A stretch of 64,000 nucleotides of DNA from Microbacterium keratanolyticum (GTDB lineage Bacteria > Actinomycetota > Actinomycetes > Actinomycetales > Microbacteriaceae), in NCBI RefSeq assembly GCF_016907255.1, contig NZ_JAFBBQ010000001.1:3002862-3066861 (forward strand), in the 5' to 3' direction. Every line of letters begins with the position of its first letter. Position 1 is the stretch's first letter. A program made the translations under genes and the position numbers. Below, piece by piece: positions 1,600 through 20,729 of the stretch. The notes beneath the pieces are model-generated. The model was not told where the DNA came from. It searched no databases and worked only from the letters and a program-made list of their open reading frames with translations.

Positions 1600-1658
1600 C
1601 CATCGAGCCTACGCCGAGGGCGCCGCCCAATCACGGACGACGCCCTCAGACGCGCGGA

Positions 1659-4292: not shown

Positions 4293-4337
4293 CCTGTCAG
4301 CCTAACGAGGACGACAGACATGCGCTGAGGAGGAACC

Positions 4338-4769
4338 GTGACCGAGAGCACCCAGATGACCGGAATCGAGTGGGCGACCGCCCGTGGGATGGGCGCCCTG
4401 GCCGAGAAGATGGGCATTGAATTCACCGAGTTCACCCTCGAGCGCAGCGTCGCGACGATGCCCGTCGAAGGCAACACCCAGCCCGTCGGTCTGCTGCACG
4501 GCGGCGCCTATGTCGTGCTCGGCGAATCGCTCGGGTCCATGGCCGCCAACCTGCACGCCGGCCCCGGCCGTCTGGCCGTCGGCGTTGACATCAACGCCAC
4601 CCACACGCGATCGGCGACATCGGGGATCGTCACGGGCGTCTGCACTCCCCTGCACCTCGGCCGCAGCGTGACCGTCCACGAGATCGTCGTCAGCGACGAT
4701 CAAGGCCGCCGATGCTCGACGATCCGCATCACCAACATGATCAAGGATCTTCCCGGCGGAGCATCCTGA
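4338..4769 (+). CDS. PaaI/YdiI-type hotdog-fold acyl-CoA thioesterase
   Basis: This 143-aa single-domain hotdog protein starts at a GTG 3 bp after a strong GAGGAGGA ribosome-binding site. It carries the classic acyl-CoA thioesterase pattern N46-x-Q48, GLLHGG (H54, G55) and E63, the positions used by E. coli YdiI and related DHNA-CoA or phenylacetyl-CoA thioesterases. It should hydrolyse a CoA thioester in the cytoplasm. The substrate (DHNA-CoA for menaquinone synthesis, or an aromatic acyl-CoA) cannot be read from sequence. It is transcribed divergently from polA and converges on pdtaR across a long hairpin. Confidence 0.88.
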   Translation: MTESTQMTGIEWATARGMGALAEKMGIEFTEFTLERSVATMPVEGNTQPVGLLHGGAYVVLGESLGSMAANLHAGPGRLAVGVDINATHTRSATSGIVTGVCTPLHLGRSVTVHEIVVSDDQGRRCSTIRITNMIKDLPGGAS

Positions 4770-4772
4770 CCT

Positions 4773-4828
4773 CGCCGAACGAAGAACGGGCCCCGACCAA
4801 TCGGTCGGGGCCCGTTCTTCGTTCGGCG
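4773..4828. terminator. Bidirectional terminator hairpin between convergent genes
   Basis: A perfect 26-bp inverted repeat (4773-4798 with 4803-4828) has a 4-base AATC loop and lies between the convergent stops of the thioesterase gene (4769) and the response-regulator gene (4834). There is no long T-run on either side, but the position and perfect symmetry fit a two-way terminator. Confidence 0.85.
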
Positions 4829-4833
4829 GAAGA

Positions 4834-5454
4834 CTACTTCTTCGGGGCGAGCTGCTCGATGATCGCCTTCGCGACGTCCTGCATCGTGAGGCGACGGTCC
4901 ATCGACGCCTTCTGGATCCAACGGAACGCCTCGGGCTCGCTCAGGCCCATCTTCTCGTTGAGAAGTCCCTTGGCGCGGTCGACGAGCTTGCGGGTCTCGA
5001 AACGCTCGACCATGTCGGCGACCTCGGCCTCGAGCGTGATGATCTGCTCGTGACGTGCCAGGGCGATCTCGATCGCCGGCAGGAGGTCGTTGGGGGTGAA
5101 CGGCTTGACGACGTACGCCAGCGCACCGGCCTCGCTCGCGCGCTCGACGAGCTCTTTCTGACTGAACGCGGTGAGGAGCACGACGGGCGCGATGTTGCCC
5201 TTGTGCAGCTTCTCAGCGGCGCTGATGCCGTCGAGCTGCGGCATCTTCACATCCATGATGACGAGATCAGGGCGAAGTTCGGTCGCAAGCTGCACGGCGG
5301 TCTCGCCATCACCCGCCTCACCGACGACGTCGAATCCGTTGTCGCGGAGGATCTCGACGATGTCGAGTCGAATGAGCGACTCGTCTTCGGCGACGACAAC
5401 TCGGCGCGGTGCTGCTGCTACGGGGGCCTGTTCAGCCGTTTCTTCCTCGGTCAC
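4834..5454 (-). CDS. pdtaR: ANTAR-domain response regulator (PdtaR/Rv1626-like antiterminator)
   Basis: This 206-aa protein has an N-terminal receiver domain: acidic pocket D24/E25, phospho-acceptor D68 in VIMDVKMP, T95 and K117 in YVVKPF. A short coiled-coil linker leads to a C-terminal ANTAR domain (about 145-200; VDRAKGLLNEKMGLSEPEAF). ANTAR regulators bind paired RNA hairpins and block intrinsic termination. The PdtaR branch is phosphorylated by the PdtaS histidine kinase, which is not in this window. The start is a GTG at 5454. The gene sits just left of the tRNA that hosts the genomic island and is part of the stable chromosome. Confidence 0.93.
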   Translation of the reverse strand: MTEEETAEQAPVAAAPRRVVVAEDESLIRLDIVEILRDNGFDVVGEAGDGETAVQLATELRPDLVIMDVKMPQLDGISAAEKLHKGNIAPVVLLTAFSQKELVERASEAGALAYVVKPFTPNDLLPAIEIALARHEQIITLEAEVADMVERFETRKLVDRAKGLLNEKMGLSEPEAFRWIQKASMDRRLTMQDVAKAIIEQLAPKK

Positions 5455-5535
5455 CTGTCCATTCTAGTCAGCACACGCGTTCCGGGAGGGAATGCGACAC
5501 CGCAGACTGCGATAGTCTCGATGACGCACACTTTC

Positions 5536-5618
5536 GCCGGTGTGGCGGAATGGCAGACGCGGAGCACTCAAAATGCTTTGTCCGAAAGGGCGTGTGGGTT
5601 CGAGTCCCACCACCGGCA
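5536..5618 (+). tRNA. tRNA-Leu (CAA anticodon)
   Basis: The 83-nt cloverleaf has acceptor stem GCCGGTG/CACCGGC (5536-5542 with 5611-5617), a T-arm GTGGG-TTCGAGT-CCCAC (5594-5610), an anticodon loop CTCAAAA giving CAA, and the long variable arm expected of a class II leucine tRNA. CCA is not encoded. The 3' end from 5595 is duplicated at 19833-19857 and is the integration target of the island. The tRNA itself is intact, because the element restores the 3' part. Confidence 0.96.
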
Positions 5619-5619
5619 C
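5595..5619 (+). repeat. attL: 25-bp direct repeat in the tRNA-Leu 3' end
   Basis: It covers part of the T-stem, the T-loop, the 3' acceptor strand and one base past the discriminator. The same 25 bases recur at 19833-19857. Identity stops on both sides (A/C before at 5594/19832 differs, T/C after at 5620/19858 differs). Confidence 0.93.
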
Positions 5620-5630
5620 TCTGCCTTAGG

Positions 5631-5677
5631 CCCCGACTCCCCTAGAAGACACTGGGAAGTCGGGGTTTTGCTTTTCT
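5631..5677 (+). terminator. Rho-independent terminator downstream of tRNA-Leu
   Basis: The stem CCCCGACT-C-CCC (5631-5642) pairs with GGG-A-AGTCGGGG (5654-5665), followed by TTTTGCTTTT. It lies inside the island, past the att core. The tRNA's present terminator is therefore supplied by the element, while the original downstream sequence now lies right of 19857. Confidence 0.82.
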
Positions 5678-5766
5678 TCGGCATCGCGTCCTTCCCCAGT
5701 TTCTTCCCCATATATCGGTGTTTCCTCCCCCCGACTGCGCATAGTCACCACGAAGGGAAGAGGACC

Positions 5767-7197
5767 ATGACGGCAGCAGTTTCAGACCCCCGCGGAGCAG
5801 GCAAGAATGCCTCCGGTTCACGTGTCAGCGCGAAGGGCGGATCGGGGGCTCAACCGGCCAAATCGCGCGCGCAGGTACGCGTCCGCCAGCTCAAGCACGG
5901 CGAGTCGATTTCGGTGCGCTTCAACATGAACGGAAAGCGCCCGGAGCGCTCGTTCGACACCCGCGAGCACGCGGAGGCATGGAAGCTCCTTGTCGACCAG
6001 GAAGGGCCAGAGAAGGCGCTTCTGATGCTGGACGCTGAGGAGCTGACAGCGGCGATCAGCAGCCACACGGTTGATGAGCTCATGAAGCTCTACAACAAGT
6101 CCCGCACGGGCGCGGAGGACGGCACGCTCGAGCACTACGAGATGTTCGCCCGCACGAGCATCAGCCCGTTCATGAGTGCACTCCCCGCACACATGGTCAC
6201 GCGAGAGAAGATCACGGAGTGGGTCGAGGCCGAGAGCGAGTCCGGTCGCGCATCGAAGACCATCAAGAACCGCCTCGGCTACCTCGCCGGAGTGTTCAAC
6301 TTCGCCGTTGACGAGGAGCTCCTTACGAAGAACCCCTGCCGTGGCGTCCGCATCCAACGCGGCGAACGCCGGCCTGTCGTATTCCTCACGGTCTCGCAGT
6401 TCGACACCATCATCAGCTTCCTGGAACAGAACGAACAGGACGCGGTCATCATGCTCGCCCACACCGGCATCCGCTGGGGCGAGCTCACTGCACTCACCGT
6501 TGACGACATTGACCTGGAGAAGCTCACCGTGAGCATCAACAAGGCATGGAAACGCTCGAAGAAGCGGGGCTGGTACATCGGGCCGCCGAAGACCAAGAAG
6601 GGCGTGCGCGAGATCTCGTTCTCAGAGAACCTCGTGCCGATGCTCCTGCGCCTCATCGCCGTAGCCCAGACCGTCGGCAAGCGTCGTGGCACTAAGCGCT
6701 CGGAGATGTATCTGTTCACGAACCGGCAGAACAACCCCCTGCGCGGACAGCGCTTCCTGGCGGGCTACTGGAATCCGGCGCTCCGCCTCGCCAACGGGCT
6801 CGCGCCGTTCGACACCTCCAACGACGCGGACAACAACCGCTGGCAGCGCGGCATCGGCGCATTCGGAACGCGCACACCGGCAGTCTCCCCCATCGGGAAG
6901 TTCCCCCGCATCCACGACCTGCGCCACACGCACGCATCATGGCTCCTCGAGAAGGGGGCAACGCTGCACGCCATCCAGTACCGCCTCGGCCACGAGTCCA
7001 TCAAAACGACGGTGGACATCTACGGCCACCGCGCCAACGCACTCTCCCGCGCCGAAGCCGACATCATGACGGATCTGTTTCAGGTGGATGAAGCCTCAGC
7101 TCCAAATCCGCAAGAGCGGCTGGCGCAGATCCGTGAGGCTCGTGAAGCGCTTGAGGCGGAAGAGCGACGGATCCTGGTAGGCGATGCGACGCCCTAG
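5767..7197 (+). CDS. int: Tyrosine recombinase / site-specific integrase
   Basis: This 476-aa phage-type integrase probably catalyses insertion and excision at tRNA-Leu. The ATG at 5767 follows a GGAAGAGGA ribosome-binding site; the open frame extends further upstream through the tRNA but has no better start. The N-terminus holds a basic arm-binding region. A SAM-like core-binding domain spans about residues 110-190 (TVDELMKLYNKS..., ENRLGYLAGVFN-type). The catalytic domain shows R236 (HTGIRWGEL), a KTKKG basic segment, H383-x-x-R386 (HDLRHTHASW), H409 (LGHES) and nucleophile Y419 (IYGH). All catalytic positions are present, so it appears intact. Location directly next to attL is typical of tRNA-targeting islands. 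Confidence 0.95.
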   Translation: MTAAVSDPRGAGKNASGSRVSAKGGSGAQPAKSRAQVRVRQLKHGESISVRFNMNGKRPERSFDTREHAEAWKLLVDQEGPEKALLMLDAEELTAAISSHTVDELMKLYNKSRTGAEDGTLEHYEMFARTSISPFMSALPAHMVTREKITEWVEAESESGRASKTIKNRLGYLAGVFNFAVDEELLTKNPCRGVRIQRGERRPVVFLTVSQFDTIISFLEQNEQDAVIMLAHTGIRWGELTALTVDDIDLEKLTVSINKAWKRSKKRGWYIGPPKTKKGVREISFSENLVPMLLRLIAVAQTVGKRRGTKRSEMYLFTNRQNNPLRGQRFLAGYWNPALRLANGLAPFDTSNDADNNRWQRGIGAFGTRTPAVSPIGKFPRIHDLRHTHASWLLEKGATLHAIQYRLGHESIKTTVDIYGHRANALSRAEADIMTDLFQVDEASAPNPQERLAQIREAREALEAEERRILVGDATP

Positions 7198-7247
7198 GTG
7201 GCCCGCTTCCTTGGATGGTGCATCCGCGGCGTACGGGGCTTCTAGTC

Positions 7248-8156
7248 TCACACCCCTGCTGGGTGCCATGACGGCCGGAGGCCGTGCGTGAGCAAGAACG
7301 CGGCCACAGCGTTCACCGCGCGAACGTCACCGGTCTCGACCGTGTAGACGAACAGCGGCATGCCGGCCCGATCCGCGGCTTCCACGCCACCGACCGTGAA
7401 GCCTCCAGAAGTGAAGAAGACCGGACGACGGCCGAGTTCGTCAACCACGCTGACGCCAATGTGCGCGCGAACCTCTTGCACAGCGACGGTGCCCGTGTAG
7501 TGCTTCACCTGCGCGACATAGAGCCCGCTCTCGACATCCACTCCCCCGTCGCCCACATACCGTGTGAGCGTGGCGTCCTCAGCGCCCATGTGAATCATCC
7601 AGTCACGCACCCATGCCTCGGCGCCGGCGGGTGAAACGCCATACGGCTGAGCTGCGGGCGCAGGATGACTCACCTGCCACCGTGTCAAAGACTCGAGCGC
7701 TTCCTCCCGCATTGCGGCGGCAACCGCGTCTGCTTCTCGCCGTTGGGCTCCCTGCTCCCGCTGGTACAGATTGCTGGCGCCAAGAAGGTGGGCGAGGTAC
7801 ATCCTCCGCCCCTCGCGGAGCGCCCTAAATGGGGTTGGGCCAAACGAGGTGAACAAGAAGGCCAAGACCCCACAAACGGGGAACCCAATCAGTATCGGAA
7901 GCTCATCGCGAAGCACGATTGCTAGGACGAAACACAAGAACGCCACTGCCACCCCGATGAATACGGACAGGTAGATCCGTCGTTTGCGAATCGCGCGCAA
8001 CGCCACTTCCAAGCTGGCGCCGACAGACGCCACATCCTCCTCGGCGCGCCGATGGTGGTCGAACGTGTCACCAGCCATCACTGCCGCCGCCGACGACTTC
8101 GCCCGTTCGCGAAGTTCGGCGTAGAACTGCTTCTCGGCTACTGCTACCGCGCCCAC
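7248..8156 (-). CDS. Membrane-anchored Mrr-like restriction endonuclease
   Basis: The 302-aa protein has three parts: a charged N-terminal segment (1-58), two adjacent membrane helices (about 61-82 and 87-105), and a C-terminal Mrr-type PD-(D/E)xK nuclease domain (about 175-300). The active-site pattern is D207 in GDGGVD followed by Q216-V-K218 (AQVKHYTG), the D-QxK variant of Mrr nucleases. Such proteins cut modified or invading DNA, and membrane-linked versions occur in defence loci. The GTG start at 8156 is tentative. It stands alone, converging on the integrase gene. The nuclease-fold call is good; target and role are inference. Confidence 0.82.
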   Translation of the reverse strand: MGAVAVAEKQFYAELRERAKSSAAAVMAGDTFDHHRRAEEDVASVGASLEVALRAIRKRRIYLSVFIGVAVAFLCFVLAIVLRDELPILIGFPVCGVLAFLFTSFGPTPFRALREGRRMYLAHLLGASNLYQREQGAQRREADAVAAAMREEALESLTRWQVSHPAPAAQPYGVSPAGAEAWVRDWMIHMGAEDATLTRYVGDGGVDVESGLYVAQVKHYTGTVAVQEVRAHIGVSVVDELGRRPVFFTSGGFTVGGVEAADRAGMPLFVYTVETGDVRAVNAVAAFLLTHGLRPSWHPAGV

Positions 8157-8483
8157 GTATCAGCGCTCCAATCTGAACCAGTCACTGCGACGCGTTCGAT
8201 GATGACCATAGCCACGCCCCCATACATTCGCAGCGTCTCACTCCTTGGACTCACAGGTGTGGGCCGCGGCCTCGATGGTGAACGCAAGCTCGTCGAAGCC
8301 GACGACTCCGTATGAGCAGGACACTACCGGCACACCTGGCGCCCGAGGCCCCATGCCATGTTCCGGCGTTGGAGGCCTCTACTCTTCAGCGTCAAGATAC
8401 TGTCGGTCGCCCTCCAGCGTGAAGCCCTGCGAATGTTGGCCTTCTTCAAGCTAAGCCCCGTACACTAGTGCCAAGGAGAAACA
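8157..8483. other. Intergenic region with no confident gene
   Basis: The 327 bp lie between two divergent genes (start of the Mrr-like gene and start of the 104-aa gene). A 38-codon minus-strand ORF (8238-8354, ATG to TGA) is present but has no recognisable product and no clear ribosome-binding site. Promoters for both flanking genes should lie here. The AAGGAG site for the plus-strand gene is at about 8473-8478. Confidence 0.5.
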
Positions 8484-8798
8484 ATGACCCGGTCAGACCG
8501 CATTGCGCTCGCGCTTTCGCGCGAAATCGTAGACAGGCTCGAGACAGAGCCTGTGTTCGTGGTGCAACGCGGACTCGCGAACGTTGACAAGGCTCGCTCG
8601 AAGAGCCGTGGCACCGCTCGCATGGCTGTCGACCGCTGGAACGAGATGCTGATGCGCTCTGACATCGCGGCGATTCGCGACACGCTGCTTGGTGACTCCG
8701 ACGACGCCCGCGAGATGCGCAACTCGGCAGTGTTCTCTGGTGTTATCCCGGAGCCTCGCCGCATGCAGATCGTTCGCGGTGTCTTGAATGCGGCGTGA
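8484..8798 (+). CDS. Putative antitoxin/partner of a nucleotidyltransferase module
   Basis: This 104-aa soluble protein starts at ATG 8484 after an AAGGAGAAAC site. The C-terminal half (VDRWNEMLM, then MRNSAVFSGVIP and a final arginine-rich helix) resembles small actinobacterial proteins encoded just ahead of DUF6036-like nucleotidyltransferases; that resemblance is from memory. Its stop overlaps the next gene by 11 bp, so the two are translationally coupled. A DNA-binding or antitoxin role is inferred from the arrangement only. No catalytic motif is visible. Confidence 0.65.
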   Translation: MTRSDRIALALSREIVDRLETEPVFVVQRGLANVDKARSKSRGTARMAVDRWNEMLMRSDIAAIRDTLLGDSDDAREMRNSAVFSGVIPEPRRMQIVRGVLNAA

Positions 8799-9348
8799 CG
8801 AGCTTCGGCTGCTGCTGCTCGAAGCGCGCCGCCTCACCGACGCCGACGAAGTCCTCGTCATTGGTTCCCAGTCTGTTCTTGCAACGTGGGACGATGACGA
8901 GCTTCCTGAGGAAGTGACGCGTTCGCGCGAAGCCGACATGCTCGTGCGTGTTCGGAACGGCATCCGCCTCACGGATTCGGAGGCCGACTACGTCAGCGGA
9001 TTTCTGGAATCCTCAGGCGTGCTCAGCGAGTTCGACCTGGAGCACGGCATCCACATCGACTCGGTGAGTCCAAACACCGCCACGCTCCCAGAGGGGTGGG
9101 AGGGACGGCTCGTCCCGATTTCCGCCATTGGTGAAGACGGCACCGAGGTTATTGGGCTATGCCTCGACCCATACGATGCCTGCGTGTCGAAGCTTGTGGC
9201 CTTCCGAGAGCATGACAGAGAGTTTGTCGGCCACATGATCCGGGCAGCGCTCGTGAAGCCGGCGACAATCCTCGACCGCCTTATGGGACTCGCACCCGGT
9301 GTCGAAGCGAATCATGCCTACGTGTTCGTTCAGGGGTTCATGGATTAG
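8788..9348 (+). CDS. Nucleotidyltransferase-fold protein (DUF6036/AbiEii-like), putative toxin
   Basis: The 186-aa protein has a minimal nucleotidyltransferase signature: G26-S27 in VIGSQSVLAT followed by an acidic pair E48/D50 in READML. It continues with a helical C-terminus (DPYDACVSKLVAFREHD, about 127-145) typical of this fold family. Related proteins act as toxins or in abortive infection by transferring nucleotides to tRNA or protein. The gene overlaps the 104-aa gene upstream by 11 bp and the pair stands alone between non-coding gaps, consistent with a toxin-antitoxin unit. The fold call is moderate; toxin activity is inference. Confidence 0.7.
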   Translation: MRRDELRLLLLEARRLTDADEVLVIGSQSVLATWDDDELPEEVTRSREADMLVRVRNGIRLTDSEADYVSGFLESSGVLSEFDLEHGIHIDSVSPNTATLPEGWEGRLVPISAIGEDGTEVIGLCLDPYDACVSKLVAFREHDREFVGHMIRAALVKPATILDRLMGLAPGVEANHAYVFVQGFMD

Positions 9349-9387
9349 CCCGGGAATCAAGTTCGGCTCGGCGGACGTGTAGCTGAC

Positions 9388-9705
9388 TCAAGCTACGTTG
9401 AGCGCCTCGCGCGCCGCGTCCTCGATGCTCAAGTGGTCTTCGAGGTCACTGGCCGTTCGGAATCCCGTGACGAACATGCCGGCGCCGGTGTAAACCGCGA
9501 AGGAGCGCCCGCCCTCGTGCGTGACCTCGTAGGTTTTGCCGTCGCGCTCGAACTCGAAGAGGGAGAGACCTTCGTCCCCGTCTTCTTCGTCCTCGAACGC
9601 CAGCGTGCTCTCCGGCTCGGTACGGTGATGTTCGCCGAACTCGCCCGAGGGGCGGCGGTGAAGTTCCATCTGTGCTGTGCGCTCGTCGTCAGTCATACCG
9701 ACCAT
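9388..9705 (-). CDS. Hypothetical acidic protein
   Basis: This 105-aa protein is not recognised. It has an acidic central stretch (residues about 43-50, DEEDGDEG) followed by a small beta-rich part (FEFERDGKTYEVTHEGG and GMFVTGFRTASDLEDH). There is no signal peptide, membrane segment or DNA-binding motif. The start at 9705 could also be the internal ATG four codons on. It stands alone inside the island, convergent with the nucleotidyltransferase gene. Codon composition is consistent with coding, but function is unknown. Confidence 0.5.
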   Translation of the reverse strand: MVGMTDDERTAQMELHRRPSGEFGEHHRTEPESTLAFEDEEDGDEGLSLFEFERDGKTYEVTHEGGRSFAVYTGAGMFVTGFRTASDLEDHLSIEDAAREALNVA

Positions 9706-9820
9706 GTACGGGGCTCACTGGGGTGCGCATGAGGAGTACTTGTCTGTCGTCATGACGTCGTTATGGCTCACGCTGCGCATATGAGAGGTGACCACCCCGC
9801 ACCCGCACCGAGGAGCCCTC

Positions 9821-10161
9821 ATGACCATTACCATCATCGACAGCACCGAGCAGGCCATTGCTGCCCGCGCCGAGGCTGAGGCCGCCCAGACTGAGTTCAA
9901 CAAGAGCTTCCCGCGGCCGTCGCAGAGGACGTGCGCAGCATCGTGCCCGACGCCATCGCCATCACCGTTCGGCACCGGGAGTGTGGCAACTCCTGGCACG
10001 TCGGGCTCGTCGCGGCGCCCTACGGCGAGGTGTGCATCAGTGATGAGCAGAGCATGCACATCGAGCGCGCGGTCAAGGCCACCGGTGCCACGCACACCGG
10101 CAACGTGCCCGGGGCGACATACATCTCCTGGACAGAGTGCCGCACCGAGTTCGAGGTCTGA
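9821..10161 (+). pseudogene. Frameshifted small hypothetical gene
   Basis: An ATG at 9821 behind a GAGGAG site opens a frame (MTITIIDSTEQAIAARAEAE...) that stays plausible to about 9915 and then becomes low-quality sequence. The neighbouring frame continues as AAVAEDVRSIVPDAIAITV and runs to a stop at 10161 with good composition (ECGNSWHVGLVAAPYGE, YISWTECRTEFEV). A one-base change near 9912-9920 would join the two into a protein of about 113 aa. It is either a pseudogene or a sequencing error. The product is not recognised. Confidence 0.5.
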
Positions 10162-10168
10162 GCGGATT

Positions 10169-10365
10169 TCAACTGCTGACCTCAGCCTGTGTGGCCGCGC
10201 GCTCGATGGCGCGGTAGACAGTTGAGCGTGCGACGCCAAACATGTCCGCGAGCTCGCGCCGGAGCGCTCGCCGGCGTGGTGCAGCTTCACAAGCACCTCT
10301 TCCTGCGCCGGGGTGAGCGTCGGCTTCTTGCGCTGCAGCCGCCCGCGTGCCTTCGCGACAGCCAT
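10169..10365 (-). pseudogene. Remnant of a serine recombinase/resolvase C-terminus
   Basis: Two minus-strand frames each hold part of the C-terminal DNA-binding region of a resolvase. KARGRLQRKKPTLTPAQEE is in the frame starting at 10365. ELADMFGVARSTVYRAIER, a Hin-like helix-turn-helix, is in the adjacent frame ending at 10169. They join across a frameshift near 10262-10270. The catalytic serine domain is absent. This is a decayed fragment of an earlier mobile element within the island. Confidence 0.65.
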
Positions 10366-10636
10366 GCGCTTCCTGCACGAGCTTCATCGCTCGCTCCCCA
10401 ACTCCTGCGGATACGTCCTCAACGCTGGCATAGGCCTCATCCTCTCGGGATTTCAGACCCTCCACTAAACCTGGGCGATTCACTCAGAACGCTTCAATTG
10501 TCAGTCACGCCCTAGCCCCGGGGTACAGCGCGATGAGCTCGCGTGGTCTGCACTTCTCAAACGGCGAAGCAGTCATGAGCGTTCGGAGCAGGAGAACTTC
10601 CACACTCCGTTCAAGGTCCAGCGAGTCTCTAAGAGC

Positions 10637-11128
10637 TCACTCCGTCGTAACCGCACCACGCATCCCGCAGGGTTCATCTCGAATCACGCCCGATGGATAC
10701 AGCCACCGACCTTCAACCTCTGCAGGATGGGGGGTCCTGAATTGAATGCGGAGTCCATTGAGTTCATTCTCGGACGAACCCGTGCGAAGGAATATCATGA
10801 GCCGGTGGTCGGAGGGAATCAGGTTCTGGACGTCTGGTTGAATCCCTGCGGGCGGCGAGCCAACAGAAAACTCCTCCCCCGGTTCGAGCGAGGCCCGTCC
10901 TGATCCTTGAAATGCGACTCCATCTGTGCGCTCGGGTGAATAGGAGGCGAACTTGATCTGGGCGTATTGAAACGTCTTCGTCTCAGCGCCGCACCAATGA
11001 AAAATGAACTCGCCGTCCCGCATAGTAACCGACATCGGTTGCTCGTTGGGAGAAGACCACAAGCAGCCGCTGAGCGCTATGCAGGAAACCAAGGCAACAA
11101 ACATCGATGCCGCTCGCTTGTATGTCAT
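10637..11128 (-). CDS. Small lipoprotein, candidate immunity protein for the RHS toxin
   Basis: The 163-aa protein has a basic n-region, a hydrophobic stretch and a lipobox L19-S20-G21-C22, so it should be diacylated by Lgt (encoded in this window) and anchored outside the membrane. The mature part is unrecognised and beta-rich, with W/C/P positions such as FHWCGAE and DEPCGMRG. The start has a strong GAGGAGGAT site. It lies 85 bp downstream of the RHS gene on the same strand, the usual place of an immunity gene in polymorphic-toxin loci. Base composition is noticeably less GC-rich than the backbone. The immunity role is inference from position. Confidence 0.72.
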   Translation of the reverse strand: MTYKRAASMFVALVSCIALSGCLWSSPNEQPMSVTMRDGEFIFHWCGAETKTFQYAQIKFASYSPERTDGVAFQGSGRASLEPGEEFSVGSPPAGIQPDVQNLIPSDHRLMIFLRTGSSENELNGLRIQFRTPHPAEVEGRWLYPSGVIRDEPCGMRGAVTTE

Positions 11129-11213
11129 TTCATCCTCCTCAGATTCTCAGAGGTCTCGGAGGAACTCGGACATGCCCAGAGCGGAGAAGCCTCCACACGG
11201 AAACGAAAACGCA

Positions 11214-14200
11214 TTAGCACTCATATCCTCCTAAACCTAAGCCAGCGTCGATCTCGAAGTAGTTCTCGCACGCTCGACCGGAACCTCGCATTGCAGATTT
11301 CAAGCTTTCCCCAAGGTAGGCCAATACGTAGTCAGCGCTCCACCCCGCCCATTGCTGCGAGTGCCGAAGCTCGTGAGCCAACAGATTGTCATCCATAAGC
11401 ACATCGGCGGTGTCCTCCGCCGTAAGGAAGACGTCTCCGAAAGTCGTTCCTCCGCCACCGGGATTCACAAAGCTCCCGCACACGATCACTCCGTTGTGCG
11501 CGGTCTGACAATCAGCTTTCCCCGCAAAGGCTGCGAGTAGGGCCGCCGTCGTGGCCAGCCTGTTTGCCTCCTGGCGTGCCTTCGCTGAGTTGGTCGCACG
11601 TTCAGTTCGTCGGATTGCCTCCGCGACCTTCCCCGGCCCAAAGGCATCGACCAAGGCACCCACGCTTCCTCCGCTCGGAGTTTCCATTTCGAATGCCCAC
11701 TTTTGGCCGCTGAGGTCGTGTCCGTTGATGGGGTCGGTGGGCCAGGCGTAGTCGTTGGCTCCGCCTCCTTCGATGGGGTCGACTTGGAGGAACCGTCCGA
11801 GCGCTGGCACGTAGAGGCGCACTCCCATCTCGACAACAAGAGTGGAGCCTGCGGTTTCTGCGGACTTGAGGGCTCCTTGGTGCCAGAGGGTGTTGCCGGC
11901 GAGTTGACCGGTGTCGTCGGATGTGGCAGTGCCGATCGCGAAGGTTGTCGGGTCCATCGGCTGCCCGAACGGGTCCCACAGCAACAGCGGGCTCGTGGTC
12001 GTGCCGCTGCGGGTGACGAGAGCGTGACCGTTCATGCTCGGGTAGGACCATGTCACCGCGCCCGACTGGTTCGTCCAGGACACTCCTCCCGGCAGTCCCA
12101 GGCTTCGGGTGAGTGCGGTGCCGGTCTTTTGGCCCCAAGGCGAGTCGCCCCCGCCCGCGTGAAGGTAGGAGGTCGTGACGGCGGGGGCTGCACCGGCGGG
12201 GTCTGTGGTGCGTGCGGCAATGCGGCCGGTCGCGTCGCGCACAATGGTCACCTTCGTGCCGTCAGCGTATGTGGTCCCGATGTGACGGTCGGCGGCGTCA
12301 TACGTGAACTGCATGTCCGCAAGCCGCGACACATTGCCGCGTGCGTCATACACGATGTCTGCGGCGGCGAGCCCATCCGTGACGGTGTTCGCCCCGGGAA
12401 TGGCACCCGTGACTTGAGTGGAGAGTAGGCGGTCGGCCCAGTCGTAGCAGTAGGCCGTTTCCGTCGTCACTGGGGACGCACCGGGGGCCGTCCACACGTC
12501 CTGCGTGCTTGTGCGATTGCCGGACGCGCCCGCGGCGGTGTTCGGCCCACATCCTCCCGTCGCGGTGTACTGGTACGTGAGGGTATGGCCCGGGATGACG
12601 GCCTTCACTAACCTGGCCGCGGTGTCGTAAGTGTAGGTGAATGTGCGAAGCGTGCTTCCAGACACCAGGTGCTGCTGGGTGACGCGTCCAGACTGGGAGC
12701 GGATGACATTATCCGAGACGAGCTGACCACCGACGAGCCACTCTTGGAACACGGTACGCTGCGCGGAGTCGCGCCCCACCTGGTTCAGCGCGGACCCGTC
12801 AGGGTAGGCGACCTTTGCAAGACGCTGGAGCGCGTCATAGGTGACGCTTGCGAGCTGCTGCCCGTCCCCCGCGACGGTCTTCACCTTTCCGTCCGCGTCA
12901 TAGGTGTACGCGGTCACCGAGGCGGCGCCTCCCGCGGGAGTCGTGCGGATCTGCGTCACACGACCAGTGAGAGAGTCATACGTCGGCACGGTGACCGTTC
13001 CCCACACATCCGTATAAGAGGTGGTCCGTCCCAGCAGGTCAGCAACCGTGGTGACCGTGGAGCCGTTCGGGGACCCCGCGACGGTGACACCGGCGGTCGT
13101 GACCTGGTATCCACCGCTGACGAGGGGCGTGTAGGTTGCGGTCGTCGTGATCGCGGCAACGCCGGTCGGTCCCGTGATGGTGGTCGCGGTGGCGCGCCCG
13201 CGGGTGTCGAACGTCGTGCACGACCATCCGGTATCTCCGGTGGTTTTGGTGCCTGCGGTGCGTCCCCATGCGTCATACACGTATTCGGTGGTGATCGCCG
13301 TGCCGGTGGCCGGCGCGGGGCCAGTCATGGTCTTCGTGAGCCCGTACTGTCGGGTGCCGGCCGGTACCCCGCAGACCGCGGGCCCGGTCTCGAGATCCCC
13401 GTAGTACGTGCTGGTGGTCTTCGCCGTCGCTGGTGCGCCGGTGGCGGCGCCCGCGGGAAGGGTGCGGGTGAGCCGGCGTAGCCACCCGGTGCTGCCGGGT
13501 TGCTCGAACGACATTCGCGTTGTCAGCGCTTGACCGTCGGGGTCGGCGATGCCCGCAGTTGGCTGCCCCAGCCAGGGGTGCTCGTAGGTCATCCCCGCGG
13601 TCATCGAGGGCGCGGCGGCGCCGGGCGCGGATGTCTGGTCATCCGTGCTCGTGCGTGTGACGAGCCCGTAGTCCGGGCGAAGCGCGGTGCCGGGGGCGAC
13701 GGTTGCTGTCGTTCCGGAGGTGGGGGTGCGCCATTTCAACTGCAGGGTTGCGGTGGCGGTGTCGTCGCGATACTCGACGCGGATGCGGCGGGTTTCCCCT
13801 GCCGCGACGGTGACGGGTACGCCGACGGTTTCGGCAGCTCCGGTTGCCCATTTGTCGACGATGAGGGTGTCGCCGACCCAGACGCGGGCACCATCATCAC
13901 TGTTGGTGACGAACGTGTACTGCCCCGCAGCGGGGAAGGTGACCAGCCCGGTCAATCGCAGCGACCAGGCGTCCGCTCCGATCCCTGCCCCAGGGGCATT
14001 CGTTCCCCAGGAGCGGTCGACGGCTCCGGCGGTTCCGCCGATACCGAACCCGATCAGTGCGGGCTTGCCACTGAGGGTCTTGTTGGCGTAGTAGGTGGCC
14101 TGCAGCCCCTGCAACGCTCCGTCGTAGACCTTAGCGGTGTGGGCGGGCAGGATGCCACATCCGCTCGTGCCGACCGGATTCGGCACGGGGCGCCCCGAAG

Positions 14201-16988
14201 CTTGGAAGCAGGCCACCGGTGCGGGCCCATAGGAGTCGGTGGCACGGTCGGTCGCCGGATCGTATACTGTCGTCGACATCACCCCCACCGAGCTGGTCGA
14301 GGATAAGACCAGGTCCTTCGTCGGATGCCATGCCTGGGTGACGGTGACACCCATAGGGCTGGTCGCGGATGTCTGCCGCAACGAGGTGTCGTAGCTGACG
14401 GTGTTGGTCGAGTTCGATACCCCTTGCACCGACACTGTCGCCGTGCGCGCCCCGACGTTGTAAGCGAAGTTCTTCTTCATCCGGGTCGCCGCCCCACCAT
14501 CGGCAGACGGCAGCGTCACCGACGCCACTCGCCCATTCGCATAGGCGATCGTCGTGGCGGGAGGGTCGTAGGTGCTGGGGACGGGTTGCGCCAGGAGATA
14601 GTCGCTCGCAGCAGAATCCTGAACGGAGACGAGCATATTGTTTGTGTCGTACCCGAACACGGTCCGTTCTGCGCCGGGGTCCTCGATCATCCACAGTTGC
14701 CCGCCGGAGTAGTACAGGTTCGTGACCGGGTTCGGGTCTACTCCCGTGGCGGGGTATTTGATCTGACACAGCGACCCGGCACGTGGCTTGACATGGCTCG
14801 GAGGCAGGGTCGGGCACGCCGTCTGCGCGGCGTTCTGATACACGAACGACACTTTCCGGTGATAGTTCGTGCCGTCTTTCGAGAGCGCATCGACGATCTC
14901 TCTCACCGTGCCGTCAGCGTTCTTAACAGCAATGGGTGCTGCGGGTTTTTGCGCATCGGCCGGGTTGGTAGCAGATTCAACCGTCCCGTCCGCGGCGAAC
15001 TGGTAGACCGTGCCGCCCTCGTCCGTGTAGACTACGCGCCCCAGCGCATCCAACGAGACAGTGCCGTATTCCCCCACAGGGGGCGTGAACCCACCCGCAG
15101 ATGTCTTTGAGTACGTGTGAGCGGCACCGCTGGCATCTGTCAGCACCACCGCCTGCGCCTCGATGGTCGCTTTCGACCACACAGACGCTTCGCCCACGAT
15201 CGGGGTCATGGTCGTCCACCCGTCACGCATTGCGGTCGGTTCGGTGGAGTACCAGGATGCCGGGACAATCACGGGTCCCGCGCTGTCGGCCGCGTCATCG
15301 GCCCAGAGCTCGACGTATGCGCTGCCGGTCGCGTCGAAGTAGTCGAGCTGGATCGGAACCTGCGCGGTAGTCAGACTCTGAACAGCCGACCACTCCACCC
15401 CGGTGCCACCGTTGGCCCACTTGTCGAGCGCGGAGACCCCGTTGACACGCAGTTTGACGCCGTCATCATGACGGACACCGAACTTCCACTGTGAGGAAGC
15501 GTGCGGCATCCGGATGAAACCGTCCCACCGCGCCATGAACGCATCCGACGCCAACGCCGGGCCGGGGCTTCCCGCACCCCAGTCGAAGGAGAGCGCGGAG
15601 TCCGTGCGGACCATCAGCGGAGTCTTCCCCGTGAACGTGTACCCGGCAGGAGCTGCTGGCACGTTCCCCAGGCTGTCCTTACCGTCGTAGTACGAACCCG
15701 TCAATCCACGAAAGGCGCCAGCGCTCTGGGAGTTGTAGGCGAAAGCAACACCCATCGGCCCACCCAGAGTGTTCACCAGAGGCGAAGAGAACGACAGGCT
15801 CGCGTTGCCGGTGGCAAGATTCACACCCACCGGGCCGACGGCATCGAACGGCGACGGACCGGCTGACCCCAGACGCAGGTCGACTTTGATGTGCTTCACC
15901 CATGCCGGGGTCGCATTCTTGCTGTTCCCATCCGTCGGCTGCACCACCCACGAATACACGTTGCCGTCACGGAGAGTGCCCTCCGGGACCGTCCAGCGCA
16001 CCTTCCCATCAGTCCCGGCGGTGACCAGCCCGGACGTGAACACAGCCCCGGACTTGCCGTCCGCGCCAGTCGCGATCTTGAACTCGTACTTCACGGTGCC
16101 ACCGGCGGGGAAGTTGTCTGGATCCGCCACAGCGTCGACAACCAAGGTTGGGGTGAGCGTGACAATGGTCTCCGGCTGACCGCTCGCATTGCCCGGAGTC
16201 GCCGTCCCCACCGGCGGGGTCGGCGGTGCGATCTGCGTCGTCAACGACCGAACTGTGCTGTGCCGCTCCGTCGACTGGCCCAACCAATCACTGTGACCAT
16301 CCATTGTGCGGGCACGCCAGTAGTACGTCGTCCCTGACAGCAGCTTCCCCTCGGGAACTGTCGCCTGCTTCGCTGTGACCCACCCGGATGACCACACCGG
16401 ATTCGACATGTCCGCACTCGCCGACACCTCGAACATCTGATACTGCGCCGGCGCGTATGGAGAAGCCCCGGTCGTCGTCACCGACAACGTCGGCGTCAAC
16501 GACTGCTGCGTGACACCGTTCGCCGGCGACGCCTGCGTCACCGTCGGGAAGTCCCAGTACTCGATATACAGGGCCGTCGCGATCTTCTTATACGTGTAGT
16601 CCGTACTCTCCCATCCCTGGATGTGGACTGGGATCGCAGACATGTTCTGCCCGAAGTAGTTCACAATGAACCGGCCGATGCCTTCGCCGGACGTCCACCC
16701 TCCCCCGTCAGCGAGGGACAGGTTCGACAACCACGCGCCGCGACAGTCATAGCAATCGCCCGTGCCCTTATTGACCGCCGCGTCATACGCCACGGTGGTG
16801 CCCGCCCCCGCGTACACGGCAAGCATCTGCGCGTCGCCGATGAACTTCTTATACGCCGGAGATGCGTCAAACCACGTATACGTCCGCCAAAACCTGTTCG
16901 TGTTGTTCTCACGGGTATTGCCAATATGGACTGATCCATATAGACCGCCCCATCGGACTTGAAAGATCTCTGGTGCGGAGGACCCCAC
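11214..16988 (-). CDS. RHS/YD-repeat polymorphic toxin with PA14 domains and HExxH metallopeptidase-like tip
   Basis: This open frame has 1924 codons. It begins with a TED/fibronectin-like region, followed by a PA14 domain (about 425-565, [11 protein letters not shown] to ELWADD), RHS segments and a second PA14 domain (about 957-1085, [11 protein letters not shown] to LQLKWRTP). A long series of YD repeats follows ([34 protein letters not shown]). The conserved RHS core boundary [19 protein letters not shown]...DLSGQ ends near residue 1762. The 162-residue variable tip contains H1872-E-L-R-H1876, a zinc metallopeptidase motif, and a Cys-bearing end. RHS shells enclose a C-terminal toxin used in contact-dependent competition. 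The true N-terminus is in another frame upstream (see the fragment at 16661-17770), so the start at 16988 is not authentic. Confidence 0.85.
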
Positions 16989-17770
16989 TGGAACGTCGGG
17001 TCAATGAACACCGGATACGCCCGCTCATCCGACGCCAACCATGCAGGATCCACGGCCAGCCCGTACGCCCAAGACCCGTCAGCCTCCTGCGTCAATGTCA
17101 CCGCCGGGTTGATGAGTGCGCTCTCCCGCTCCCCCTTCACGCCGGACGAGTCCCACGCCACCGGGGTCGGCACATGCATCACGACCGCGCCCTCAGCGTC
17201 CTGCAGTTCCAGCACATCGTGCTCGCCCAGCACCGGCGTCAACTCGCCCACATCAAGACGCCACGACCAAGACGCCTCAACCGCTGGCACTTCTCCGAGC
17301 ACGAGGGTTTCCTTCACCGCCCCCGGTTCCACCTCATACTCGAGGTCAACGTCGGCACGCACATCGGAGAACCGCAACGTGTCAGATGCCTTGCCGTCCG
17401 ACGAATCCGGTTCCGCCCGGGCAGCATTGCTGTCCTCCAGCGAGAACGAGACGCTGTGACCGTCCGCCTCGACCAACACCGCACGATCCGCAGTGGCCTC
17501 ATCCGCGAACGATGGAGACAGCGGATGATCCGGAGCCACCCACCGGTCACCGTCTTTCACCACGTCTGTTGAGATTTCCGCCCATGTCCCCGGCGCAGTC
17601 TCAAAGTTCAACAGCTCCGTCGACTCCAGACGAATCGTCGTCCCCGCGTCCGTCGCGTACGTCGTAGAGAACGCGTCCCGGCCAACAACCGTACCCGCCT
17701 CCGCACGCGCCTTCAACCCCGCACCATCGCTCTTCGGCTGCTGTACACGCTGGGAAAGCCGCGAGGACAC
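16661..17770 (-). pseudogene. N-terminal fragment of the RHS protein, separated by a frameshift
   Basis: From a GTG at 17770 this frame encodes about 280 residues of the N-terminal RHS region ([50 protein letters not shown]). Sense is then lost at about 16928-16930. The continuation ([15 protein letters not shown]) lies in the frame of the large ORF, so one missing base separates them; the remaining codons to 16661 are out of frame. No signal peptide is present: the frame is open about 25 codons further upstream with no start codon, then meets a stop. The gene is probably truncated and inactive unless the shift is a sequencing error or is recoded. Confidence 0.75.
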
Positions 17771-17810
17771 GGCCTCCGTCGCGGTCTCGTCAATTCTCGG
17801 CTCAACAAAC

Positions 17811-18410
17811 TCACCCGCTGGCGGCGGTGAAGCCCCACTGCGCGGCAGTCAGTGCCGGGTACAGCTCCTGCGCTTCGTAGAACGCGTCGTTGTCTGTGGA
17901 GAATCGGAACAGCGCGGCGAGGTCGAAAGCGTCGAGGGTCTCGTCCCCCTCCCCTGCCTGCCACGCCTCGACGCGGGCGAGGTCGATGGGGTTGTCCAGG
18001 TCGAGCCCGCACAGGGCCATGACGTCCGCCCAGCCGCCCTCGGGCGAGTAGACGCCGGAGCGGGTGAGTTCGATGGCGATGCGCAGCGCCCACTCGGCGT
18101 CAGTCTCCACGCGCGGCTCGGCGTTCTCGGTCTCACGGATCTGCAGTCGCAGGCCGACGTGCTCGGGCAGCCAGAACAGCGGGTGCCACATGAGCTCGGG
18201 CTTGACCGTGCCGAAACGGGTGTCGCGGTGGTAGACCGGGAGCGGGTGGGTGGTGATGGGGTCGGAGATGACCTCTGACGGCTCAAGGCCGCTGGCGTTG
18301 ACGAACGCGAGCATCCGCTCGGCTGCCTGCATGGCGTCGTAACTGATGAGCAGCTGCTCACCCTCCTCGGTGAGGAAGTGCTGGCGGGCGATGGTTACGG
18401 GTGCGGTCAT
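17811..18410 (-). CDS. Hypothetical protein upstream of the RHS gene
   Basis: The 199-aa soluble protein starts at ATG 18410 and is not recognised. It has no signal peptide or membrane segment. It has an N-terminal helix-rich part (YDAMQAAERMLAFVNASG) and an aromatic-rich middle (ELMWHPLFWLPEHVGL), and it is acidic overall. The stop is 40 bp before the GTG of the RHS fragment on the same strand, so co-transcription is possible. It could be an accessory or adaptor protein of the toxin locus, or unrelated cargo whose insertion removed the RHS signal peptide. Confidence 0.6.
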   Translation of the reverse strand: MTAPVTIARQHFLTEEGEQLLISYDAMQAAERMLAFVNASGLEPSEVISDPITTHPLPVYHRDTRFGTVKPELMWHPLFWLPEHVGLRLQIRETENAEPRVETDAEWALRIAIELTRSGVYSPEGGWADVMALCGLDLDNPIDLARVEAWQAGEGDETLDAFDLAALFRFSTDNDAFYEAQELYPALTAAQWGFTAASG

Positions 18411-19227
18411 GTGGGGGCTCCAAGGTGTGAGTCAGGCGTGCACTCCACACCCTGCGGCGAGGGGCTCGCCCTCGGGTTCGGCGGGTGGCTCACGATGCTC
18501 GACGCGCATCTCGCCTGTGAAGGTTCGGGTCACGCGGTGGGCAGATGCTCCCGGGCTTCAGGCGCTACATAGGCGCTGCGGGTGCCACGTGCGCCCGGGA
18601 TGGTGCCTCTGACACACGCTCAGGATGGCGGATTTGCCGACTCACCTGCTCCCGACTGGGATCGCGGGGGTCTGAGCACCCCTCGAAGCGACGCTCTTGG
18701 CACAGCACCGGGCACCGCGCCCGGTCGGTGTATTCACAATTCCCCAGGTCAGTTCACAAAAAGCAGGGCTGTGCCCGGTGTGACCGGTGCGGGAGGGTAT
18801 GTACATAGAGCGAGAAGTGTTCTAGAGGAGGGGCAGTAGGGGGATTGCCCCTTCTATTTATCTATTTCTTCTCTTACATGAAATACCTACTACCGGGCAA
18901 CCAGTCCAAGGTGCCCTTTCCTCTAGAAAACACTGGGCAAAACCATGCCCGGTGCCTGTTGAGGTGACCGGGCACACCGGCCAATCTCACCCAGAACGGG
19001 CGGGTTCAGGCTCTGAATGAACGGTCTCGACGCAGAATGGCGCTCTCACGCGAGCCATCCTCACCGGCCGAAGCATCGACCCGCGAGCCACAGCTGCCAG
19101 ACAATCAGCCTCTCGTCCGCGCAACCCTCCCTCGTTATGCAGCGTTCGCACTTGCGTGAACGGGCGCCTCGGACACGTCGCGGGATGGCACTGCGCATAT
19201 ACGTGGCGACCGTCAGAAAGGATTCTC
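18411..19227. other. Large non-coding region of the island with repeats
   Basis: These 817 bp lie between divergent genes. Near the left end there is a weak 33-codon minus-strand ORF (18432-18533, GTG start). The centre (about 18700-18980) holds repeated ACCGGGCA words in both orientations and an AT-rich core (about 18850-18890) strongly unlike the surrounding GC-rich DNA. The right end carries the presumed promoter and the AGAAAGGA site (19215-19222) of the HTH gene. No protein of reasonable quality is visible. A replication/transfer origin or a multi-site regulator-binding region are both possible. Confidence 0.6.
18707..18975. repeat. Cluster of ACCGGGCA repeats in both orientations
   Basis: Exact 8-mers occur at 18707-18714 (+), 18772-18779 (-), 18892-18899 (+), 18946-18953 (-) and 18967-18974 (+), with a one-mismatch copy at 18932-18939. 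An imperfect inverted repeat of the type AGTGTT..CTAGAGGA (about 18816-18828 and 18921-18934) flanks the AT-rich core. Such density in 270 bp of non-coding DNA suggests protein-binding iterons or operators. Confidence 0.6.
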
Positions 19228-19590
19228 ATGATTGCTGTCCCCACCATCGAAGACCTCCTCGAGCAGTACCCCGCCGTCTGCAGCGCGGAGCAGGCAGCCG
19301 AGATCCTGAACATGACCCCGCGCGTCCTCGCAGACCTGACGCGAGCTCGCGGCATCGGCGCCGTGAAGACTGGGCGCTCCTGGTCGTACCCGAAGATCTC
19401 CATCATCGAATGGCTGAACGCGAACACGATTGTCGTCGCGACGGCCGAGGAGCCGGCACTCACGCCGCTCGAAGAGCTGGCCGCTGTCGCACGCACTGCA
19501 ACGCCGAAGCCTCCCCTTCAGGACGAGCTGGACAACGCCTGGGGTCGCCGCCGCCGTGGTCAGCGTCGCACCACGGCACTCGCTTCGTAG
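19228..19590 (+). CDS. Excisionase-like helix-turn-helix protein
   Basis: The 120-aa protein starts at ATG 19228 after AGAAAGGA; the longer open frame from 19156 lacks a good ribosome-binding site. Residues about 13-62 form a MerR-type winged helix-turn-helix of the HTH_17/excisionase class (CSAEQAAEILNMTPRVLADL, GRSWSYPKISIIEWLN). The C-terminal part is Pro/Arg-rich and probably disordered. Location near attR with the integrase at the other end fits a recombination directionality factor, or a regulator acting on the repeat cluster immediately upstream. A rho-independent hairpin follows. Confidence 0.8.
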   Translation: MIAVPTIEDLLEQYPAVCSAEQAAEILNMTPRVLADLTRARGIGAVKTGRSWSYPKISIIEWLNANTIVVATAEEPALTPLEELAAVARTATPKPPLQDELDNAWGRRRRGQRRTTALAS

Positions 19591-19609
19591 ACCACATCGC
19601 GCCAGTCAG

Positions 19610-19643
19610 CCCCCGCAGCGCACCTCGTACTGCGGGGGTTTCT
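19610..19643 (+). terminator. Rho-independent terminator after the excisionase-like gene
   Basis: A perfect 9-bp stem CCCCCGCAG (19610-19618) pairs with CTGCGGGGG (19630-19638) and is followed by TTTCT, 19 bp after the stop of the HTH gene. Confidence 0.82.
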
Positions 19644-19832
19644 CGTGCCCAAAAGGTGGGGAAGCCTTCCCCAAAATCGACTATTCTGGGCAAAACGAGC
19701 CAGCGAGACGGGTTCGGAGGTAACACACGATTTGGGGGAACTACCCCTCTGGATCCGCGTATTTCCGCGGAAGTTGCGTCACTCTGGCGGATCTTCCCGA
19801 GATTTCACGGAAGCCCAAAAGGGGTATGTTAC

Positions 19833-19857
19833 TGGGTTCGAGTCCCACCACCGGCAC
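19833..19857 (+). repeat. attR: 25-bp copy of the tRNA-Leu 3' end
   Basis: Perfect match to 5595-5619. The bases before it do not form a tRNA, so this is only the displaced 3' part and marks the right boundary of the island. Confidence 0.93.
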
Positions 19858-19896: not shown

Positions 19897-20676
19897 TCAG
19901 AAGGCGGCCAGCGCATCCGCGAGCATCCGGTGTCCCTGCTCCTCGAAGCCACTCTCCCCCACCTGCACGGCGTAGCACGCGGTGCCGACGGCCTCGCGGA
20001 GCCTTTCCAGCCGCCACTGCTCGGGTTCGCGTGGATCCCCTCCGTAGCCGTCCAGGAACGCCTCCTCCAGTGAAGGATCGTCGCGCCATTGCTGAGCGGC
20101 GAGTCTTGCGAGGTCGCTGGAACGCGTGCGGAAGGCGAAGCGGCCGAAGTCGATCACACGCACGGTGTCGCCGTCGATCAGCCAGTTGCGAGGCTGCCAG
20201 TCGCCGTGCGTCGGCACGGTTCGCACCGTTCGCCTCGGAGCATTCTCGAGAATCTGTCGTACCTGCTGCACGGTCTCGGGTGCGATCCGATGCGGCTGCT
20301 GCAGCCAGTCCAGCGCTCGCAGCAGCACACCCGCACGCTCGTAGATCCGCGGATCGCGCTCGGCAACTGACTTCTCTACCAGCACTCCTGGCAGATACTC
20401 GAGCAGCATCACGCGCAGATCAGGGTCGCCATCGAGCAGACGCGCCGCGTGTCCTGTGTCCGTCAGCGGCGCGGTGTGCCGGGGATGCGCGGAAAGCTCT
20501 CGCAGGATGTGATGGTTGCGCGGGCCACCCGCTTTCACGATCACATCCCCGTTGCATCCACGCACGCGCAGAACGATCGAGTCGACGAGGTCCCAGGACA
20601 GATCCGCAACGATCACAGCATCCGGGAGTCGACCGTCCACCCAGCGTCGCTGAACGTCGGAGAGCCGGGAAGTCAT
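19897..20676 (-). CDS. Aminoglycoside phosphotransferase (APH)-family kinase
   Basis: The 259-aa protein belongs to the protein-kinase-like APH fold. It has a catalytic loop HGDWQPRNWLID (around residue 165) with the Brenner-type HGD..N pattern and a metal-binding VIDFGRF. The chosen ATG at 20676 precedes MTSRLSDVQRR; the open frame extends 28 codons upstream with low-quality sequence. APH-family members phosphorylate small molecules such as antibiotics, choline or sugars, and the substrate here is unknown. It lies between attR and the pyk terminator and was the original right neighbour of tRNA-Leu. Confidence 0.85.
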   Translation of the reverse strand: MTSRLSDVQRRWVDGRLPDAVIVADLSWDLVDSIVLRVRGCNGDVIVKAGGPRNHHILRELSAHPRHTAPLTDTGHAARLLDGDPDLRVMLLEYLPGVLVEKSVAERDPRIYERAGVLLRALDWLQQPHRIAPETVQQVRQILENAPRRTVRTVPTHGDWQPRNWLIDGDTVRVIDFGRFAFRTRSSDLARLAAQQWRDDPSLEEAFLDGYGGDPREPEQWRLERLREAVGTACYAVQVGESGFEEQGHRMLADALAAF

Positions 20677-20729
20677 GTGTTCATCGTAGGAGCGCACGAT
20701 ACGTGGCGCCGCCGCGCACCCCGAAACGC

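Follow-up and report, generated by a model that had tools for sequence, protein, structure and literature searches.

We analysed a stretch of the Microbacterium keratanolyticum genome, here called the window, which covers 64 kb (positions 3002862-3066861) at the end of a single 3,066,861-bp contig. Within it, a 14.2-kb segment lies at the 3' end of a tRNA-Leu(CAA) gene and is bounded by an exact 25-bp repeat. From left to right, this segment carries a tyrosine integrase gene, an Mrr-like gene, a nucleotidyltransferase gene with a small partner, fragments of a recombinase gene and of an insertion sequence (IS), a putative lipoprotein gene, a broken RHS gene, a truncated gene of a megaplasmid-borne family, a non-coding region with clustered repeats, and a probable excisionase gene. 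A preliminary description of the locus had proposed an integrated island with competition and defence cargo. What we find is a genomic island of a fairly ordinary kind that has decayed in part.

Ends and recombination genes of the island

The target gene, tRNA-Leu(CAA), occupies 5536-5619 of the forward strand (ARAGORN; 5536-5618 with Rfam RF00005), was left intact by the insertion, and is the sole tRNA that ARAGORN reports in the window. Its last 25 bases, from the T-stem to the terminus (5595-5619), are repeated with zero mismatches at 19833-19857 of the same strand. The identity ends there, with not one further base shared on either side, and the unit measured between equivalent points of the two att copies is 14,238 bp. 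The right copy is outside any tRNA, and not part of a second tRNA gene. Throughout the 3.07-Mb genome, the exact 25-mer occurs only as these two copies, and about 3 × 10−8 further chance copies are expected under a base-composition model. No third copy with up to three mismatches was found in the window, and none of 100 shuffles matched. The 14.2-kb unit with exact repeats, as first proposed, is therefore confirmed. The interior of the island was also searched for an older att copy in degenerate form; the best partial matches reached only 17 and 18 of 25 positions, and we rejected the idea. The island has a GC content of 63.7%, against 67.2% in the remainder of the window, a modest difference.

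The 25-mer is present in 17 of 295 genomes of the genus, the source included. In all 16 others (294 searched), it is a single copy and always lies inside a tRNA-Leu(CAA) recognized by ARAGORN. At one position of the block, 25 of 30 tRNA ends read at congener loci have G, whereas both copies here have A. The A form is frequent outside the genus (25 of 27 IMG/VR matches). Integration leaves two att copies of mixed origin, one with element sequence at its 3' side and the other with chromosomal sequence there. Since both copies have the minority A and their 3' parts come from different partners, the incoming element probably had the A already, which points to a donor lineage that shared this tRNA-Leu variant. 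The 27 IMG/VR viral contigs (L093-L119) carry the tRNA-Leu 3' block in its A or G form; 22 of them show no detectable tRNA in the stretch tested, although some perhaps end there. Other elements, viruses included, thus seem to use the tRNA-Leu(CAA) att site as well. We also considered whether the island had replaced a genome-encoded CCA tail, as the right copy runs on into CACCACC. Congeners vary after ...GGCAC, so a CCA tail is no conserved feature there, and we discarded this idea.

The integrase gene (5767-7197, forward strand; 476 aa) begins 147 bp inside the island from the tRNA end. As initially described, it is apparently intact. It matches PF00589 at 75 bits and phrog_1. Alignment with Int proteins of solved structure, 6EMY being the best, extends over two stretches, and these include the positions of R, K, HxxR, H and Y, which we take to be the catalytic residues. 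When about 5.8 billion proteins were searched and 7,995 candidates scored, the nearest relative among the matches listed was 46% identical; the best listed phage relatives were mycobacteriophage integrases at 34-35%. PF00589 is found in only two other proteins of the genome (325- and 307-codon frames), which are taken to be XerC and XerD.

At the opposite end, the gene for an HTH_17 protein (19228-19590, forward strand) stops 242 bp from the right end of the island. The HTH_17 score is 35.5 bits (cut-off 27) for a translation scanned from a longer start at 19156, the PHROGs scan of island ORFs also gave an excisionase family, and TIGR01764 ('excise') reaches 20.3 bits, under its cut-off of 28.8. 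No tblastn match was found in the phage or plasmid collections. Judged by position and domain, this is probably the excision factor (recombination directionality factor), consistent with the excisionase-like gene first noted near the right copy. Arm-type integrase sites were sought as well: CTTCCCCA occurs twice at each end, yet 19 of 300 shuffles shared equally many 8-mers, and this candidate was dropped.

Site occupancy in congeners was measured as the interval between tRNA-Leu(CAA) and the pyruvate kinase gene (pyk), with gaps taken between match ends. We entered 75 of 76 other genomes of the genus, omitting one with weak matches (G023, best E 1e-4), and set aside another with tRNA and pyk on two contigs (G011). 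This left 74 genomes with both on one contig. In 40 of these, the tRNA lay inside the match and in the same orientation (the same-arrangement set); the other 34, with gaps of 177-4,888 bp, were excluded from same-arrangement counts. The interval spans 15.2 kb in the source genome and 64-4,664 bp in 39 of the 40 same-arrangement congeners, 11 of which have 225 bp or less. Short-gap sites were read directly at three loci (L049, L058 and L059).

The remaining congener of this set (G002) has a 17.3-kb interval (L046, about 900-18200) that includes genes for a phosphoketolase (XFP) and a beta-CASP hydrolase, identified from two scanned open reading frames (ORFs), and further ORFs that by eye resemble universal-stress-type and sensor-type genes. 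We rejected it as a second such island, as no integrase was seen by eye among its ORFs. In some other congeners (L057 of G071, L042 of G064, L054 and L055), tRNA-Leu(CAA) is inverted where it sits between pyk and a response regulator gene, so this interval has seen rearrangements that involve no island as well. A phosphotransferase gene (19897-20760) adjoins the right end of the island; none of 14 congener loci tested has a homologue. Any integrase match at E ≤ 1e-20 was confined to 11 of 294 other genomes of the genus, at no more than 36% identity.

Truncated genes and mixed cargo

The island carries an RHS/PA14 gene (PF07691, PF05593; TIGR03696) on the reverse strand. Its main part, with a variable C-terminal tip, is read in frame -3 (11214-16928), and a start-proximal piece in frame -1 (16928-17845) was located by tblastn of relatives of 2258-2268 aa. 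The alignment accordingly falls into two pieces, from 17845/17821 to 16928 and from 16928 to about 11.7 kb. The closest relatives are 77-80% identical (480 residues scored), and the best named ones carry the label Microbacterium. Relative to the three closest full-length relatives, the gene lacks its first ~45-67 codons, and a stop stands at 17851 in the start-proximal frame. The first 70 residues of four relatives, which are mutually 44-78% identical over matched parts, have no match in the window (best E 0.054, elsewhere). The 'RHS toxin' of the preliminary description is therefore a gene without a start and with a broken frame. A literature search on RHS proteins with PA14 in Microbacterium gave nothing specific among the 8 of 19 matches listed.

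Immediately upstream lies a truncated gene (17811-18410, reverse strand) of a family borne on megaplasmids. It has 199 codons, compared with 269-306 aa in 25 of 26 relatives (the last has 167), and lacks the last ~75 codons; for most relatives, homology ends at ~17817. Two relatives (P0122 and P0131) align slightly beyond its stop, which raised the alternative of a simple premature stop. It is disfavoured, as the C-terminal parts are absent from the window: those of 25 relatives gave no match at E ≤ 0.01, and in the 1.55-kb junction stretch their best E was 0.017, on the opposite strand. Because neither this missing C-terminal part nor the missing RHS start has a match in the window, a deletion is favoured. 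At 17817-17851, the sequence passes from homology with the upstream gene to homology with RHS genes; this interval is probably the deletion scar at which both losses meet.

The truncated gene and its relatives (P0122-P0147) belong to a protein family that no Pfam model matches. With P0126 as query, the plasmid collection gave nine records with the family, all from Micrococcales and 149-608 kb in size, and the phage collection gave none; no relative was found in IMG/VR. It occurs in 3 of 148 other genomes of the genus, two of which have helicase genes nearby and, by eye, DnaE-like ORFs (both) and an ORF resembling single-stranded DNA-binding protein (one). A confident AlphaFold model of P0126, built on a 23-row alignment, reached a predicted local distance difference test (pLDDT) score of 90.9 and a predicted template modelling (pTM) score of 0.84. 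Searched against PDB, the model gave no match better than E 0.4, and the family possibly represents an undescribed fold.

The RHS tip (11214-11663) has counterparts of 32-40% identity in four of the listed RHS relatives. It contains, by eye, a HELRH stretch, which suggests what we assume to be a zinc-peptidase-like domain; its Pfam matches are all below cut-off, the best being eCIS_core. Downstream of the RHS gene, a putative lipoprotein of 163 aa (10637-11128, reverse strand) has a lipobox-like start by eye and a 55% relative in another genome (G249). We considered the lipoprotein as an immunity partner of the tip and rejected this, as no relative of the tip occurs within ~4 kb on either side of that relative (9-kb stretch).

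Two remnants lie farther along. One resembles a resolvase or transposase helix-turn-helix (HTH) region (10169-10365, reverse strand), with weak HTH_23 and HTH_7 matches below Pfam cut-offs and a match to phrog_125 (DNA invertase). The other is a 118-bp IS end fragment (10366-10483, reverse strand) that is 75-91% identical to places in congeners. Among the ORFs at seven such places that were inspected, several have by eye an OrfA-like transposase start, presumably of the IS3 type.

The Mrr-like protein (7248-8156, reverse strand; 302 aa) carries an Mrr_cat nuclease domain (PF04471, 36 bits; cut-off 21), and its N-terminal half includes, by eye, a hydrophobic stretch. The preliminary description had assigned it to defence; PADLOC yields weak matches, the best at E 0.0011 and 16 bits, and we do not retain that label. 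Together with the state of the RHS gene, this makes the competition-and-defence picture of the island too strong.

What had been called a nucleotidyltransferase pair is a two-gene unit, but only one member is a nucleotidyltransferase. This is the DUF6036 protein (8788-9348, forward strand; PF19502, 44.3 bits, cut-off 23.6), for which no AbiEii family match was seen at E ≤ 0.1. Its small partner (8484-8798, forward strand; 104 aa) was recognized by tblastn against plasmid partners and matches no Pfam family at E ≤ 1. The nucleotidyltransferase has relatives in 52 plasmid records; the phage collection gave no match, and no relative was found at E ≤ 1e-8 in 197 other genomes of the genus. We opened six of the 52 matched plasmid loci. 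In all five that are actinobacterial, a gene of 171-201 aa lies directly upstream of the DUF6036 gene (overlaps of 14, 4, 4 and 4 bp, or a 6-bp gap), and three of these five partners carry an HTH annotation. In the sixth, an Acidiphilium plasmid, the annotated upstream gene has 51 codons. The two genes thus form a conserved unit, as in nucleotidyltransferase toxin-antitoxin pairs.

The island partner matches the C-terminal half of two of the six plasmid partners (tblastn; best 32%, E 7e-8). Its HTH half is absent, with no trace seen by eye in the three forward frames just upstream, and the partner may be truncated or a short form. In AbiE-like toxin-antitoxin pairs, a small upstream gene is followed at once by the nucleotidyltransferase gene. 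The island pair resembles these in gene order, and differs from them in its DUF6036 rather than AbiEii match and in a partner without the HTH half. No mention of DUF6036 was found in the literature searched. Next to this pair lies a hypothetical ORF of 105 aa (9388-9705, reverse strand), with no family above cut-off.

Between the truncated gene and the probable excisionase gene, a non-coding region (18411-19227) contains five copies of ACCGGGCA, on both strands, within 268 bp (18707-18974) around an AT-rich patch (18851-18900). None of 1000 shuffles of the region had any 8-mer five times; when the 64 kb were scanned as 309 overlapping 820-bp segments, one other place also had an 8-mer, a different one, five times. 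A 13-bp inverted repeat (92% complementary; GTGTTCTAGAGGA at 18817-18829 and TCCTCTAGAAAAC at 18919-18931) flanks the patch. No similar DNA was found in the plasmid or phage collections. The region could be regulatory, an origin, or nothing.

Mobility and competing explanations

The preliminary description had recognized no transfer or replication gene, and we likewise found none in the ORFs scanned. Pfam and NCBIfam scans of all but the smallest island ORFs gave no relaxase, TraB/FtsK, Rep or Prim-Pol family. There is no relaxase among the 10 main ORFs and no PF03432 in the genome, other relaxase families having been sought only via the ORF scans. All six genome matches to PF01580 (FtsK/SpoIIIE-type Tra) are far outside the island. 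Family scans found no Rep; RepSA has no Pfam model, and no search aimed at it was made. A survey of actinomycete integrative and conjugative elements (AICEs) built its own profile for RepSA (PMC3218068).

Sibling islands were sought at several levels. By integrase protein, none was found in 295 genomes of the genus, the best other match being 36%. By DNA (5620-11200), 18 of 294 other genomes gave matches, which were to the IS fragment, to the lipoprotein gene, or short. A general genome-contig collection returned a single 25% integrase match and IMG/VR no related integrase, both searches reaching close relatives only. Phage and plasmid records gave no sibling, all matches being under 60%. A literature search on tRNA-Leu islands in Microbacterium listed three papers, all of them loose matches.

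We favour an Int/Xis-type genomic island at tRNA-Leu(CAA) with plasmid-type cargo, which is partly decayed and whose transfer module is absent or lost, and we put the probability of this reading at roughly 0.8. Its integrase would have recombined attP with the matching 25-bp sequence in the chromosome, with the incoming att copy rebuilding the tRNA and the displaced copy marking the right end. The HTH_17 protein would probably turn the integrase towards excision. The interior would be a mosaic, its cargo drawn from plasmid-like and chromosomal sources and eroded afterwards. A deletion would have fused the stump of a megaplasmid-type gene to the start-less, frame-broken RHS gene, with IS and recombinase fragments left behind. 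As no replication or conjugation module is recognizable, the island would at best excise and re-insert, and could pass between cells only with an incoming helper or by generalized transfer. The att repeats, the integrase, the difference between occupied and short-gap sites and the truncations are direct observations; excision activity, deletion as the origin of the scar and a plasmid ancestry of the cargo are inferred. Relative to the preliminary description, the probable internal scar, the IS and recombinase remnants and the apparent plasmid affinity of two cargo genes are new.

Several points weigh against this reading. The empty-site comparison suggested in the preliminary description yielded short-gap sites in congeners, but in no relative compared is the tRNA followed exactly by the sequence at 19858. 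The closest genomes compared are only ~85-91% identical in the flanking genes, and the tRNA-pyk interval also varies without islands, reaching 17.3 kb in the congener described above. A sequencing error could account for the RHS frame break (~16928). Large replicons may be over-represented in the plasmid collection, and the genes with plasmid links could have joined the island late. Finally, the named integrase relatives are largely phage enzymes, so the plasmid affinity applies to the cargo and not to the recombination module.

A different view of the same genes is that the island is a still-mobile integrative mobilisable element (IME) with an origin of transfer (oriT) or of replication at 18.4-19.2 kb, which uses a helper plasmid or integrative and conjugative element and lacks mobilisation genes by design. 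The apparently intact Int and Xis-like genes fit this, as does the ACCGGGCA cluster beside the AT-rich patch, which no shuffle equalled, and IMEs by definition borrow the conjugation apparatus of a helper, according to PMC5704250. Even so, no relaxase family was found in the main ORFs scanned, the plasmid and phage collections gave nothing related to the repeat region, a similar 8-mer cluster exists at one further place in the window, and the truncated genes point to decay. We consider this explanation unlikely. More speculatively, the cluster and patch might be a plasmid-type origin (oriT, or an origin of vegetative replication, oriV) fired by the proteins of a visiting megaplasmid. We regard this as quite improbable; if true, a minimal hitch-hiker limited to Int, Xis and a cis-acting region would spread with no replication or transfer protein of its own.

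The phage affinity of the integrase, which groups with phrog_1, also raises the prospect of a prophage or phage-satellite remnant that kept its integrase and Xis and lost its virion and replication genes. The viral contigs with the att block and no detected tRNA suggest that viruses use similar sites. However, a PHROGs scan of 10 ORFs, the RHS gene not among them, gave no packaging, capsid or phage replication family; those found were integrase, excisionase, DNA-binding/HTH, DNA invertase, repressor and function-unassigned families. With no related integrase within reach of the IMG/VR search, and no phage-collection match for the truncated-gene family or the nucleotidyltransferase, we hold a phage origin to be very improbable. 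A last alternative is that genes simply came and went at a variable chromosomal position, that a segmental duplication left the second tRNA end, and that the integrase is there by coincidence. The 64 bp to 17.3 kb spread of the interval in congeners, the 17.3-kb case showing no integrase by eye, speaks for it. It is hardly credible, however, given that the tRNA 3' end is precisely where the duplicated block stops and that the integrase and HTH_17 genes lie so close to the two ends.

Relation to described elements and significance

The arrangement of a duplicated tRNA end, an adjoining integrase gene and an HTH_17 gene at the far end is the standard Int/Xis layout in PMC2704930, where genomic islands insert at the 3' ends of tRNA genes and have direct repeats that are often 16-20 bp. 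By the same account, the island resembles genomic islands in size (10-200 kb), 3' tRNA insertion, perfect direct repeats, an integrase adjoining the tRNA, IS remnants and patchy distribution; it falls outside that definition in nothing, and its combination of cargo is its own. With AICEs as described in PMC3218068, the island shares a tyrosine integrase, a 3' tRNA site and an Xis-like gene, but has no FtsK/SpoIIIE Tra and no recognized Rep in the ORFs scanned. Like IMEs and cis-mobilisable elements (CIMEs), as covered in PMC5704250, it is a non-autonomous unit between att sites. It differs from a canonical IME in that no relaxase was found in the island ORF scans, and from a CIME, which has lost its integration genes, in that it keeps an apparently intact integrase.

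Our findings document tRNA-Leu(CAA) integration in the genus Microbacterium. An integrase with a defined 25-bp repeat is also a candidate integration tool. The state of the RHS gene indicates that cargo labels such as 'RHS toxin' need an intactness check before a role in competition is inferred. More broadly, the island shows one stage in the life of actinobacterial islands, in which the recombination module is apparently intact while the cargo is already partly broken.

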